Source: Flavobacteriales bacterium
GTDB lineage: Bacteria; Bacteroidota; Bacteroidia; Flavobacteriales_D; Crocinitomicaceae
DNA length: 64,000 nt
Assembly: GCA_022361195.1 (NCBI GenBank)
Contig: JAKSBJ010000232.1
Coordinates: 1-64,000 of the forward strand
Direction: 5' to 3'
The notes under the pieces are model-generated. The model did not search any database. It was not told where the DNA came from and saw only the letters and a list, made by a program, of their open reading frames with translations. Made by a program: the position numbers and the translations under genes. Positions 5,245 to 9,155 of the stretch are shown here, one piece after another; within the stretch, counting starts at the first letter, position 1; the number at the start of each line of letters is the position of its first letter.

Positions 5245-6402
5245 CTAGGCCAAAGCCTGAGATAAGTCCTCCCAAATGTCATCAAGGTACTCTAAACCTA
5301 TGGATAAACGAATTAATCCAGAGGTAATTCCAACCTTTAAACGGTCCTCTTCAGTTAATTTAGAATGTGTTGTACTAGCCGGATGCGTGGCAATGGATCT
5401 TGAATCTCCCAAGTTTGCAGTTAAGGAAAACATTTTAAGCGAATCCAAAAATTTCTTTCCTGCAACTAATCCTCCTTCAATTTCAAAGGTCACCAATCCA
5501 CCTCCACCTTGCATTTGATTTTTTGCAATTTCATACTGCGGATGGGATGGTAAAAAGGGATATTTAACCCATTTTACTCTTGGATGAGATTCAAGGCGTT
5601 TGGCTATATCTAAAGCAGATTCATTGTGTCGTTCTACCCTTAAAGGCAATGTCTCCAATGATTTGGAAAAGGTCCATGCATTATAAGGTGATAGTGCCGG
5701 ACCTGTGTGTCTGGCAAAAGCCTGAATTTGATCAATGAGTTTGTTAGATCCCAAAATAACTCCTCCCATTCCTCTTCCCTGGCCATCAATGTATTTTGTA
5801 GCTGAATGAATGGATAAATGTGCACCAAAATCTAACGGTCGTTGATTAATAGGTGTTGCAAAACAATTATCGACAATCAAAAGCAAGTTCTTCCGTTTTG
5901 CCAACTCTCCTACCTTTTTTAAATCAATGATATCTAATCCCGGATTTGTCGGTGTTTCCAAATAAATGACTTTGGTATTCTCTTGAATTTGGCCTTCCCA
6001 ATTATCAACATCATCAAAAGGGACATAAGTCGTTTCAATTCCCCACTTTGGTAAAAGTTCAGTAAATAAGCGATGCGTTGAACCAAAAACCGAACGGGAC
6101 GAAAGAATATGATCTCCTTGCCCCAATAAAGCTCCAAAAGTACTAAAAATGGCCGCCATTCCCGAAGCTGTAGCCCAACCACTTTCCGCCCCTTCCAATA
6201 AAGCCATTTTACTCACAAATTCGTCCACATTGGGATTAGAATAGCGGCTGTAAATAAATCCTTCTTCCTCTTCATTAAAAAGAGCGGCCATTTGGTCCGA
6301 ATCTTCAAAAGTGTAACTAGAAGTAAAATAAAGTGGAACCGCATGTTCTCTATGTTGAGAACGTTCGGCCTGATTTCGTATGAGTTGTGTTTGAGGTTTC
6401 AT
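5245..6402 (-). CDS. metZ: Trans-sulfuration PLP enzyme: O-acetyl/succinylhomoserine sulfhydrylase (MetZ/MetY type)
   Basis: 385 residues, the usual length for the Cys/Met metabolism PLP family. It has the substrate loop YSRYSNPNVD, the cofactor region VDNCFATP, and the PLP lysine in SIHSATKYIDGQGR (Lys203). The HSATKYIDGQGR form is typical of the O-succinylhomoserine sulfhydrylase group rather than cystathionine gamma-lyase. The neighbours are homoserine dehydrogenase and homoserine O-acetyltransferase, so the likely reaction is O-acetylhomoserine plus sulfide to homocysteine, in the cytoplasm. It is the third gene of a riboswitch-controlled operon, 12 bases after hom. Cystathionine gamma-synthase activity cannot be excluded from sequence alone. 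Confidence 0.85.
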   Translation of the reverse strand: MKPQTQLIRNQAERSQHREHAVPLYFTSSYTFEDSDQMAALFNEEEEGFIYSRYSNPNVDEFVSKMALLEGAESGWATASGMAAIFSTFGALLGQGDHILSSRSVFGSTHRLFTELLPKWGIETTYVPFDDVDNWEGQIQENTKVIYLETPTNPGLDIIDLKKVGELAKRKNLLLIVDNCFATPINQRPLDFGAHLSIHSATKYIDGQGRGMGGVILGSNKLIDQIQAFARHTGPALSPYNAWTFSKSLETLPLRVERHNESALDIAKRLESHPRVKWVKYPFLPSHPQYEIAKNQMQGGGGLVTFEIEGGLVAGKKFLDSLKMFSLTANLGDSRSIATHPASTTHSKLTEEDRLKVGITSGLIRLSIGLEYLDDIWEDLSQALA

Positions 6403-6414
6403 TTTTTAGATGGA

Positions 6415-7638
6415 TTAATGTGCCAATACAAATTCTTCCTGCTTTTGAAGATCTTTTAGAATACCTTCTCCAAAAAAGGAAATGAACAGTTCAGGGTTTT
6501 CGCGATACAATTGGTGATTCAATTGTTTGATTTCAATTTCACCAATACGGTAGGAATAGTGTGAAGAGATAAACTCTTCCTCCACCGTTAAAAATTCAAT
6601 TTTTTGGAGTGATTCCTGTTCGCTGGTAGAAACAAATACACGAATTTTATATTCATCATTCCATTTTAGCTTATTACGCTTAAACTTACGGTATTCGTAA
6701 TCGTAACTGAATTGCAATGCAGAAACGTCGGATAACACAGCACTTGCCGTAGGATAACTCCCTGCTCCTTTCCCGGTAAACAATTGTCTATCCGCAAAAA
6801 GCCCTTCAATAGAAACTGCATTAAATTCATTCTCAACATTGTACCCAAAACTATCGTCTCGCACAAACTGAGGTGCTACAAAAGCTCTTACCTCCTCACC
6901 TATCTTCTTTGCAAAAGAAATGAGCTTGATTCGATAACCTTTTTCCTGTGCAAAACGAATGTCAGATTGTTTGATATTACGGATCCCCAAGTTCAATACT
7001 TCCTCTGGTCTTGTAATCAAACCAAAAGCATGTAATAACAATATCTGAAGTTTAAACTTACTATCAAAACCGTCAATATCAAGCGTAGGATCGCTTTCTG
7101 CAAATCCAACCTCCTGAGCATCTTTCAAAATCTCATCAAATGATTTTCCTTCCTTGTCTAATCGACTAAGAATATAATTGGTTGTTCCATTACAAATTCC
7201 TTGAATGGAATCTAAGCTATCGTTGTTATAATATTCTTCAAGGTTTCGGATAACCGGAATACTACCACAAACGGCTGCCTCATACAAAAACGAAACATTG
7301 TACTTTTCTTTTAACTGGATCAGTTCTTCTAAGTGCTCAGCGATGAGTTTTTTATTCGCAGAGACTACATGTTTGCCATTTTTCATGGCTGTAGTAACAA
7401 TGTCATACGCCGCTTCGGCATCATCAATCAACTCAACGACCAAATTAATTTCTGGATCGTCCAAGATATCATGCTTATTGTAAGAAAAAGCAGATGGAGA
7501 GAGACTCCTTTTTTTCGTTGGATCTTTAACCACAATTTTATTGATGGTAGCATTCAGCAAATTACTCTTATTCAACACTTCGTAAAGTCCCGACCCTACG
7601 CAACCAAAGCCAAATAATCCAATATTCAGTTTATTCAT
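6415..7638 (-). CDS. hom: Homoserine dehydrogenase
   Basis: 407 residues. The N-terminal nucleotide-binding motif is GLFGFGCVGSGLYEVL. SANKKLIAEH is the conserved lysine-containing segment, ICNGTTNYILSRL lies in the substrate-binding domain, and FAESDPTLDIDGFDSKFKL holds the catalytic Asp and Lys. The enzyme reduces aspartate semialdehyde to homoserine. It is a free-standing enzyme, not fused to aspartokinase. The C-terminal 70 or so residues do not show an obvious ACT domain to me. Placed 4 bases after metX and 12 before the sulfhydrylase, it supplies homoserine dedicated to methionine synthesis under SAM riboswitch control. Function secure. Confidence 0.92.
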   Translation of the reverse strand: MNKLNIGLFGFGCVGSGLYEVLNKSNLLNATINKIVVKDPTKKRSLSPSAFSYNKHDILDDPEINLVVELIDDAEAAYDIVTTAMKNGKHVVSANKKLIAEHLEELIQLKEKYNVSFLYEAAVCGSIPVIRNLEEYYNNDSLDSIQGICNGTTNYILSRLDKEGKSFDEILKDAQEVGFAESDPTLDIDGFDSKFKLQILLLHAFGLITRPEEVLNLGIRNIKQSDIRFAQEKGYRIKLISFAKKIGEEVRAFVAPQFVRDDSFGYNVENEFNAVSIEGLFADRQLFTGKGAGSYPTASAVLSDVSALQFSYDYEYRKFKRNKLKWNDEYKIRVFVSTSEQESLQKIEFLTVEEEFISSHYSYRIGEIEIKQLNHQLYRENPELFISFFGEGILKDLQKQEEFVLAH

Positions 7639-7642
7639 TTTT

Positions 7643-8680
7643 TTAATTTAAGATGTGATTTCTCCTTTTTAAGGAGGTTGGTTTATATGATTTAAAATCG
7701 TTCCACAAAAAATCAGCGATGATCTTCTCCAAAACGTCGTAATTAATTAAAAAAGCATCGTGACCATGGACGGAATTAATAACTCCTAGTTCGGCCCCTG
7801 GAATGTGATTGGCCAGAAATCGTTGTTCATCTAATGGGAATAGCAAATCGGATGAAATTCCAACCACCAAAGTTTTAGCCTCTATCCAGCTCAAAACCTC
7901 AGCCTGATTTCCTTCTCTTCCTCTTGCCACATCGTGACTATCCATTGCCTTGGTCAGTGTATAATAGGCATTAGCTGAGAAACGATTAATGAATTTTTCA
8001 CCTTGATAACGTACATATGAAGAAGCTTTAAAATCATCTTTTTTCCGTTGAAAATCGGTTTGTTTAATTTCAAAATCTTCGTATGATCGGTACGAGAGCA
8101 TGGCAATGGCTCGAGCGGCCTTTAATCCCTTTGCACCACCTTTCTTTTTTCCAAAAGTAGGATCGGCTTTAAGGGCTAAACGTTGTGTTTCGTTAAAGGC
8201 TCTTCCCAAAGCCGAATGAGCAGCATTACAAGCTATTAAGATGAGTTGTTTATGTCGCGAAGCCTGTTGAACGGCCCACTCAACAGCCTGTTGTCCACCC
8301 AATGAAGGACCAATTAACAAATCAATTTCATTGACTCCTAAATGATCAGCTAAAAGGATGTGAGCTTTCACCATATCCTTAATGGTAATGAGCGGAAATG
8401 TAGAAGGATTTTGAGAAGATTCAGCTCCACTGCTCCCGTAACATCCCCCCAAAACATTGGCACAAATGATTTTATAATTGACTGGATCAAAAAGGCGATT
8501 TTCACCAAATAATCCTGGCCACCAATCCAAAACTTCTGAGTTTCCTGAGAGGGCATGACACACCCATATTACCTTAGTGGCATTGGGATTACCGTAAATT
8601 GAATAGGCGATTTGAATTCCTTCAAGCTTTTCACCTGATTCTACTTTAAATTGTCCGTCGTATTGAAAATAATTAATCAC
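7643..8680 (-). CDS. metX: Homoserine O-acetyltransferase
   Basis: 345 residues, alpha/beta hydrolase fold. The oxyanion region is CHALSGNSEV, the nucleophile elbow is GPSLGGQQAVEWA (Ser126), and the C-terminal catalytic His is in SVHGHDAFLI; an Asp sits upstream in SSDLLFPLDEQ. MetX transfers acetyl from acetyl-CoA to homoserine, the committed step of the direct sulfhydrylation route. The frame starts at a GTG (8680); no ATG fits near the conserved N-terminus. It is the first main gene of the operon, preceded by a SAM-I riboswitch and a small Cys-rich leader ORF. Acetyl rather than succinyl specificity is the family norm and is not proven here. Confidence 0.92.
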   Translation of the reverse strand: MINYFQYDGQFKVESGEKLEGIQIAYSIYGNPNATKVIWVCHALSGNSEVLDWWPGLFGENRLFDPVNYKIICANVLGGCYGSSGAESSQNPSTFPLITIKDMVKAHILLADHLGVNEIDLLIGPSLGGQQAVEWAVQQASRHKQLILIACNAAHSALGRAFNETQRLALKADPTFGKKKGGAKGLKAARAIAMLSYRSYEDFEIKQTDFQRKKDDFKASSYVRYQGEKFINRFSANAYYTLTKAMDSHDVARGREGNQAEVLSWIEAKTLVVGISSDLLFPLDEQRFLANHIPGAELGVINSVHGHDAFLINYDVLEKIIADFLWNDFKSYKPTSLKRRNHILN

Positions 8681-8697
8681 TTTATGTGCTTTTAAGG

Positions 8698-8747
8698 TGC
8701 CCGAAAGGGCAAATGAATACTTTGAAATAGATTCTTTGAGAAAGAAT
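8698..8747 (-). promoter_or_regulatory. Two hairpins between the Cys-rich leader ORF and metX
   Basis: On the minus strand, ATTCTTT-CTC-AAAGAAT (8747-8731) begins at the leader ORF stop codon. TGCCC-TTTC-GGGCA (8711-8698) follows, ending 17 bases before the metX GTG. Neither has a strong U-run, so they look more like attenuator, pause or start-masking structures than simple terminators. Role is inference. Confidence 0.4.
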
Positions 8748-8887
8748 TAATGCATTGAGCAGCAACAGTTCAGAAAAGAAACTGTCATTGAAATTGAGTT
8801 CAAAGATTCAGAACATAAAGTAAGAGTGCAACAATCCCCTGTGTTACGACTAGCTAAAGCTATTTGCTTGTGATTTTGTGTCTTCAT
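8747..8887 (-). CDS. Cys-rich leader ORF (46 residues) between SAM riboswitch and metX
   Basis: This frame begins at an ATG (8887) nine bases after the last base of the riboswitch P1 stem and ends at a TAA overlapping a hairpin. The peptide starts MKTQNHKQIALASRNTG. It has six cysteines: a CC pair and a single C in DCCTLTLCS, and three consecutive Cys codons in the C-terminal LNCCCSMH. There is no signal peptide and no recognised domain. A short ORF with clustered codons for a pathway-related amino acid, placed in the leader of a sulfur amino acid operon, is the layout of a ribosome-mediated attenuator. The Cys codons would report cysteinyl-tRNA supply. The same frame is open back through the riboswitch, but that part is structured RNA and not coding. 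No homologue is recalled, so coding status is tentative. Confidence 0.45.
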   Translation of the reverse strand: MKTQNHKQIALASRNTGDCCTLTLCSESLNSISMTVSFLNCCCSMH

Positions 8888-8896
8888 TTGTAATTC

Positions 8897-9016
8897 ATTT
8901 ATATTTCCCCACCTTGGGGACAGGAATTGGCACCGATTTTCCAATTTGTCAGGGACAAACTTATAGTTGGTTGCCAGAGGGTCATAGAGCCTGTCTCTCA
9001 CCTCTTCTTTATAAAT
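8897..9016 (-). ncRNA. SAM-I (S-box) riboswitch upstream of metX-hom-metZ
   Basis: Read on the minus strand, the P1 stem is ATTTATA (9016-9010) paired with TATAAAT (8903-8897). Inside lie the conserved S-box pieces in order: GAGGTGAGAGAC, the CTCTATGACCCTC segment, GGCAACC, GGTGCCAATTCCTG, and the P4 hairpin CCCC-AAGGT-GGGG. This matches the SAM-I aptamer order, with a P3 insertion between GGCAACC and GGTGCCAA. SAM binding would be expected to shut off methionine synthesis. The expression platform is not a textbook terminator: P1 is followed at once by a small ORF and two short hairpins. No exact TAnnTTTG box was found upstream. Confidence 0.93.
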
Positions 9017-9155
9017 CAATCACAATGCTTACAAGAATTGTAATCGACTGGGACAAAGATTTGAAAAGAAAAATTGAAATTCCAAATCTTTATTTAAAAA
9101 AAATTAATCAGCGATTTTAAAAACAGCTTGTAAGGCTAGTAAAATCAATAAAAAA

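Follow-up and report, generated by a model that had tools for sequence, protein, structure and literature searches.

We propose that the metX operon of this Crocinitomicaceae genome is governed by a two-stage, two-signal RNA regulator, in which a SAM-I riboswitch responds to SAM first and a leader peptide ending in a run of cysteine codons responds to Cys second. We regard this reading as probable, though well short of certain. Comparison of related genomes reveals a conserved leader open reading frame (ORF) in a constant position, a Cys run that is likewise conserved, and complementarity to the start region of the downstream gene in many lineages. Translation of the leader, ribosome stalling, Cys-tRNA shortage as the trigger, the sign of the effect, and the two-input logic are inferred, with no expression, ribosome-profiling, or structure-probing data at hand.

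The window, that is, the whole stretch of DNA that was analyzed, comprises 64,000 nucleotides. The aptamer, leader, hairpin, and metX are all encoded on its minus strand, and the locus contains the following features.

8896..9017, minus strand: SAM-I riboswitch aptamer (RF00162; cmscan 69.8 bits, whole model 1-108)
8893..8904 (approximate limits), minus strand: 3' strand of aptamer stem P1, A/U-rich (leader RNA fold)
8747..8887, minus strand: leader ORF, 46 codons, ATG start, TAA stop (sequence; same layout in relatives)
8828..8833, minus strand: Cys codons 19-20, TGT TGC (sequence)
8813..8815, minus strand: Cys codon 25, TGT, within the predicted anti-metX helix (sequence; RNA fold)
8759..8767, minus strand: Cys codons 41-43, TGT TGC TGC, the terminal run, matching the conserved position in relatives (sequence; comparison)
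8810..8823, minus strand: predicted anti-metX helix, 5' strand, leader codons 22-26 (RNA fold)
8698..8711, minus strand: small hairpin TGCCC-TTTC-GGGCA, 5 bp, directly before metX (RNA fold)
8677..8690, minus strand: predicted anti-metX helix, 3' strand, formed by the translation initiation region of metX, GTG start included (RNA fold)
7643..8680, minus strand: metX, homoserine O-acetyltransferase, GTG start at 8680 (best NCBIfam model TIGR01392, 316 bits, below the cut-off of 500; Pfam Abhydrolase_1)
6415..7638, minus strand: homoserine dehydrogenase, operon gene 2 (NF004976 above cut-off; Pfam)
5245..6402, minus strand: PLP enzyme, probable O-acyl-homoserine sulfhydrylase, operon gene 3 (TIGR01325, 503.8 bits, cut-off 510)

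The window aptamer qualifies as a SAM-I element, exceeding the RF00162 gathering score of 44.4 and carrying the conserved core. Nine positions past it, the ATG at 8887 opens a frame that translates as MKTQNHKQIALASRNTGDCCTLTLCSESLNSISMTVSFLNCCCSMH up to the stop codon ending at 8747, with six Cys at codons 19, 20, 25, 41, 42, and 43. An earlier note on this DNA had singled out this ORF, with CC in the middle and CCC near the end, and the ORF is present as described. It is unlikely to be a product of chance: when the stretch from the aptamer to metX was shuffled 4,000 times with dinucleotides preserved, 12 shuffles contained an ATG ORF having at least three Cys in its last 12 codons, and one of the 4,000 also reached at least six Cys in that ORF. 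The same note held that the pathway encoded here uses sulfide directly. This claim receives moderate support from operon gene 3, whose best match is an O-succinylhomoserine sulfhydrylase, but the score remains under the model cut-off.

Both SAM-I elements of the window genome are preceded by a similar ATCTTTGT[CT]CCAGT stretch with an upstream TTG (window 9025-9080, minus strand; L001, approximately 1455-1495). The Bacteroidota promoter has the form TTG/TAnnTTTG, and because these stretches resemble it, they are probable promoters. Elsewhere in the window, positions 663-698 of the plus strand hold a DUF805b RNA (RF02914; 44.4 bits, above the gathering score).

A MetX search over 240 Crocinitomicaceae genomes, made without any selection for Cys, yielded 86 upstream regions, and SAM-I was detected by its core motif or by Rfam at 73 of these loci. 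A first survey of the family with RF00162 had given mainly metH leaders, and the MetX-centred survey was used instead. Fourteen of the 73 loci are of a leaderless type, with 50-57 nt separating the aptamer core from the metX ATG. The remaining 59 have a longer spacer of 150-400 nt between SAM-I and metX, and 55 of them carry a Cys-run ORF of 25-51 codons at the start of the spacer, the criterion being at least two Cys within the last 12 codons. Examples of these leaders are MKTNSKNTKAYQQYNTAKTITFDTSRMHCCCMCCCCC, MKSAKIYDQNFSPNPGSNPSFSFVSQMCCCCCC, and MKKELHSSSQEKSLSTLKAVKSISVVGFYSMCCMCCCCCMC, each followed by a stop codon, and the longest terminal Cys runs extend up to CCCCCCCC. SAM-I elements before metH were without a Cys leader ORF in the loci examined; the second SAM-I of the window genome (L001:1501-1627) and those of relatives (L083-L112) directly precede metH.

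The leader ATG is located 37-61 nt from the aptamer core (47 nt in the window, the same as in L116). Because it occupies the place that the metX ATG takes in leaderless genomes, SAM-I probably gates translation of the leader. Most simply, this geometry would mean that initiation at the first ORF, be it the leader or metX, is under SAM-I control. In the window, the 3' strand of P1 stops some 5 nt short of the leader ATG, and the ATG-to-core position is kept in relatives; judging from geometry only, this strand is the likely site where SAM controls leader initiation. At high SAM, binding of the ligand would close P1 directly ahead of the leader ATG, leaving the leader untranslated, and in leaderless genomes, the same stem would face the metX start codon itself.

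The Cys codons are concentrated at the end of the leader. In 60 leaders, mostly from Crocinitomicaceae, Cys accounts for 256 of the 720 codons in the last 12 positions versus 15 of 1378 upstream (about 35% versus 1%), and in 62 other leaders, mostly from Sphingobacteriaceae, the corresponding counts are 257 of 744 versus 71 of 1598. The two synonymous codons are used side by side in the first set of tails (TGT 132, TGC 124). Likewise, 28 equal-length Pedobacter leaders have Cys at codons 38 and 39 without exception, both synonymous codons being used, and much of the remaining peptide drifts. In genus g8, the tail M-C-C-C-C-C is invariant, and changes elsewhere in the leader are spread about evenly over the three codon positions (338, 315, and 364). 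Because there is little constraint outside the tail and the tail Cys are kept, the pattern is, as far as sequence comparison can tell, the mark of regulatory codons and not of a working peptide. The earlier note had suggested looking in relatives for conservation of the frame and of the Cys codons, and the idea held up: several Bacteroidota families share the frame, its placement behind the aptamer, and the Cys run, with free exchange of TGT and TGC. By its sequence, the window copy is a weak member of this conserved leader family.

These counts bear on the possibility that the ORF encodes a functional small Cys-rich protein under SAM control, for example one that is metal- or thiol-binding. 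Consecutive Cys residues might coordinate a metal or react with thiols, and the ORF does stand at the position of a SAM-regulated gene. However, the peptide outside the Cys/Met tail is not conserved between genera, the even spread of changes over codon positions in g8 speaks against such a protein, the Cys run lies at the extreme end adjoining the stop, and searches of the leader peptide against Pfam and NCBIfam returned no match. We give this explanation very little credence.

Equally hard to sustain is the idea that a (UGY)n repeat has been selected only as an RNA pairing element, with the ORF being incidental. While the repeat does pair with downstream RNA and the Cys codons of Pedobacter fall within a conserved hairpin, Cys-type triplets are concentrated in one frame (256, 92, and 14 by frame in the 720 tail codons). 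Moreover, an open frame from a fixed start precedes the run and a stop follows directly after it; at the third base, T and C are equally common and TGG triplets are seldom seen, and a TGA would terminate the ORF.

Met is enriched beside Cys in the tails of both leader sets, at 13% and 16% of the last 12 codons versus about 1% or less upstream (96 of 720 versus 16 of 1378 in the 60 leaders above), and tail patterns such as MCCCM, MCMCM, and CMCCC are common. The leader could accordingly be taken to sense the sulfur amino acids jointly, Met together with Cys, or mainly Met. We consider this improbable: Cys codons are more than twice as frequent as Met and form the runs, the tail Met codons may instead serve the pairing with the metX start, CAU/AUG pairs being present in many of the helices described below, and the supply of Met is already reported by SAM-I.

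As a short ORF with regulatory codons clustered near its end, located upstream of sulfur-metabolism genes, the leader has the ORF layout expected of an amino-acid-sensing leader-peptide attenuator. It does not fit the trp type, since no intrinsic terminator (a hairpin with a U-run) was found on the minus strand between the window leader and metX, and this intrinsic-terminator model was ruled out. Where the earlier note had pointed to hairpins before metX, the small 5-bp hairpin is indeed present, but the main predicted structure is a helix between leader codons 22-26 and the metX start (8823-8810 with 8690-8677). Holding 8677..8690 unpaired costs about 5.6 kcal/mol (MFE).

Pairing of this kind recurs among the relatives. 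The metX initiation region places 0.22 of its predicted pairing with the segment from -18 to +11 around the first tail Cys codon, versus 0.063 for shuffled spacers (3.5 times; P = 7e-5 at the level of leaders and P = 0.015 at the level of genera). Native pairs of leader and start bind better than start regions swapped between genera (P = 0.0078), with no effect for a control segment inside metX, and a codon-permutation test gave P = 0.010 at the genus level. The helices have 10-14 pairs and differ in sequence by lineage, as in L120 (CAUUUUAAUUGU with ACAAUUAAAAUG), L175 (UUUUCAAUGAU with AUCAUUGAAAA), and genus g8 (AAUGUGUUGU with ACAACACAUU). Restricting the fold to the RNA that lies downstream of a ribosome placed at the first tail Cys codon raised the predicted accessibility of the start region from 0.44 to 0.62. 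Because predicted pairing joins the beginning of the Cys run to the metX start region in many lineages, a ribosome stalled for want of Cys-tRNA should expose metX, an inference for which neither stalling nor direction has been shown. The window helix alone is not significant, as 18% of codon permutations do as well and its swap quantile is 0.22. Of the Cys codons, this helix includes Cys25 and leaves out the terminal CCC, and the conserved terminal run may therefore work in another way in the window. Covariation in the g8 helix is one-sided, from G-C to G-U, and genus g16 and most of g4 have no anti-start helix.

In genus g22 (L167, L172, and L179), the start, length, and frame of the leader are kept, and nearly all tail Cys codons are lost; L167 and L179 retain the pairing with the metX start despite this loss, which counts against the regulator that we favor. 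A change of the sensed amino acid is possible, as is decay.

The genera without the anti-start helix need another output, which lends some weight to the main rival explanation, a Cys-sensing leader with a transcriptional output: leader translation, or a ribosome stalled on the leader, would keep Rho off the spacer or operate a Rho-dependent stop. The lack of an intrinsic terminator between leader and metX fits this explanation, and Rho has been suggested for mycobacterial Cys leaders (PMC1262725) and reported at a riboswitch-controlled upstream ORF (uORF) in Mycobacterium tuberculosis (PMC12810186). However, a Rho mechanism has no need of the complementarity between the start of the Cys run and the metX start, and we judge it unlikely, without dismissing it.

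In the two-signal regulator that we favor, the leader segment at the start of the Cys run would pair with the metX initiation region in the resting RNA and shut metX. At low SAM, the leader would be translated, and its terminal Cys codons would gauge charged Cys-tRNA. Under Cys-tRNA shortage, a ribosome stalled on these codons would cover the pairing strand and free the metX start, whereas with plentiful Cys, the ribosome would depart, the helix would re-form, and metX would be shut again. MetX output would be greatest when SAM and Cys are both scarce.

Similar leaders are present in other Bacteroidota clades and before other genes. Near 80 named MetX relatives, chosen by MetX similarity only and with no Cys selection, a leader with a Cys run was found at 69 of 74 SAM-I elements. 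In Pedobacter (...TCMCCCIQ, then stop), Mucilaginibacter (...CMCCCC, then stop), and Adhaeribacter, the leader precedes metY, which is upstream of metX. A pattern search in Hymenobacteraceae detected the SAM-I core together with CCC in 47 of 150 genomes; the leaders read there mostly have a GTG start, and the gene behind them is mostly an amino-acid permease or ATP-grasp gene, with some before metY and one before cysH. At least three further families gave single cases of SAM-I with a Cys-run leader, before metY and cysH. Since the pattern searches select for CCC, no frequencies are taken from them. A phylum-wide pattern with a narrow gap matched only 3 of 395 genomes because it demanded the exact core and a CCC in a narrow range, and wider patterns and the named loci gave many more. 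Three class-level pattern matches (L261, L266, and L269) were judged to be chance, no leader ORF being seen, and a search for a wider regulon with a genome-wide poly-Cys tail pattern was too noisy, its reversed control also being rich in matches.

Two groups of Hymenobacteraceae loci have other genes behind SAM-I and a poly-Cys leader. In L200, L202, L239, L240, L244, L249, L254, and L258-L260, the gene is a RimK-like ATP-grasp gene (MSSLQKPIGIYFEHPEWFKPLFAELDRRG...) of unknown function, and its place behind these elements suggests a role in sulfur or SAM metabolism. In L199, L237, L238, L241-L243, L245-L248, L250-L253, L255, and L256, it is an APC-family amino-acid permease (best model BcaP, below cut-off), which may import Met or Cys.

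The Cys run of Pedobacter sits in a conserved hairpin. The region that follows, between leader and metY (L008:1377-1578 and the same region in 38 other loci) holds two more conserved hairpins, approximately CUUCC..GGAAG and GUCCCG..CGGGAU, the second with compensatory changes; a comparison with Rfam gave no family above threshold, and they constitute unannotated structured RNA. Because the RNA structures between leader and gene differ in Pedobacter and Hymenobacteraceae, the output step probably varies, and it seems that the sensor is conserved with an output structure that differs by lineage.

SAM-I riboswitches usually control a terminator or the enzyme gene's own start. The window aptamer is a full member of this class (S-box, RF00162) but faces the start of a leader peptide. 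Mycobacterial polycysteine leader ORFs are reportedly Cys-responsive attenuators and leaderless, to go by the title of a 2020 study by Canestrari et al. They share with the window leader a short ORF with a Cys run near the stop, a place before sulfur genes, and the absence of an intrinsic terminator, but belong to Actinobacteria and are not known to have a riboswitch. In the Bacteroidota leaders, in contrast, the start codon comes right behind SAM-I, and the genes downstream are metX, metY, cysH, and others. The window ORF, which follows a SAM-I element of about 120 nt and has no NCBIfam match, does not share the trait that marks the mycobacterial family, a leaderless 5' start without a riboswitch. 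A 2005 study had already predicted poly-Cys leaders lacking terminators for the cys operons of mycobacteria (PMC1262725). In the LEU element of actinobacterial leuA, Leu codons pair with the leuA ribosome binding site (PMC1262725); pairing of a regulatory-codon run with the initiation site of the next gene is thus shared with the model proposed here, but the codons are Leu and not Cys, a pseudoknot is formed, there is no riboswitch, and the phylum is another. In M. tuberculosis, B12 riboswitches with translated uORFs precede ppe2 and metE, and an Mbox-controlled uORF precedes pe20 (PMC11260477, PMC12810186). There too, a riboswitch controls a small upstream ORF whose translation sets gene expression (ppe2), but the ligand is B12 or Mg2+, no regulatory-codon run or amino-acid sensing has been reported, and ppe2 is reached by termination-reinitiation at overlapping ORFs. 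The SAM-II riboswitch of Sinorhizobium metA is likewise close to an initial AUG, the true start of the gene being further downstream, but it is of a different class, has an intrinsic terminator between the two AUGs, and lacks a Cys leader (PMC9373788). The earlier note knew of no described Bacteroidota case in which a SAM-I riboswitch is combined with a Cys leader peptide, and we found no account of one, there or elsewhere, in the open literature, subscription literature being outside the scope. The parts are of known kinds, and their combination in series looks undescribed and new.

Extended to the phylum, the proposal would be that SAM-I controls the start of a Cys-sensing leader, and not the enzyme gene, throughout Bacteroidota, so that metX, metY, cysH, and transporters require low SAM and then a shortage of Cys (perhaps also Met), sensed through ribosome stalling at a codon run that would keep the gene start masked when no ribosome is stalled there. 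We lean toward this general form only slightly. If the proposal is true, a metabolite-binding riboswitch and a translated amino-acid-sensing leader peptide, the two classic forms of leader RNA control, are joined in series in one mRNA, the former acting on the latter, in a large phylum for which we found no account of leader peptides of this type in the open literature. The arrangement occurs in culturable genera (Pedobacter, Mucilaginibacter, relatives of Fluviicola, and Hymenobacteraceae) and is directly testable. It would show SAM-I combined with a cysteine signal where methionine and cysteine share sulfide.
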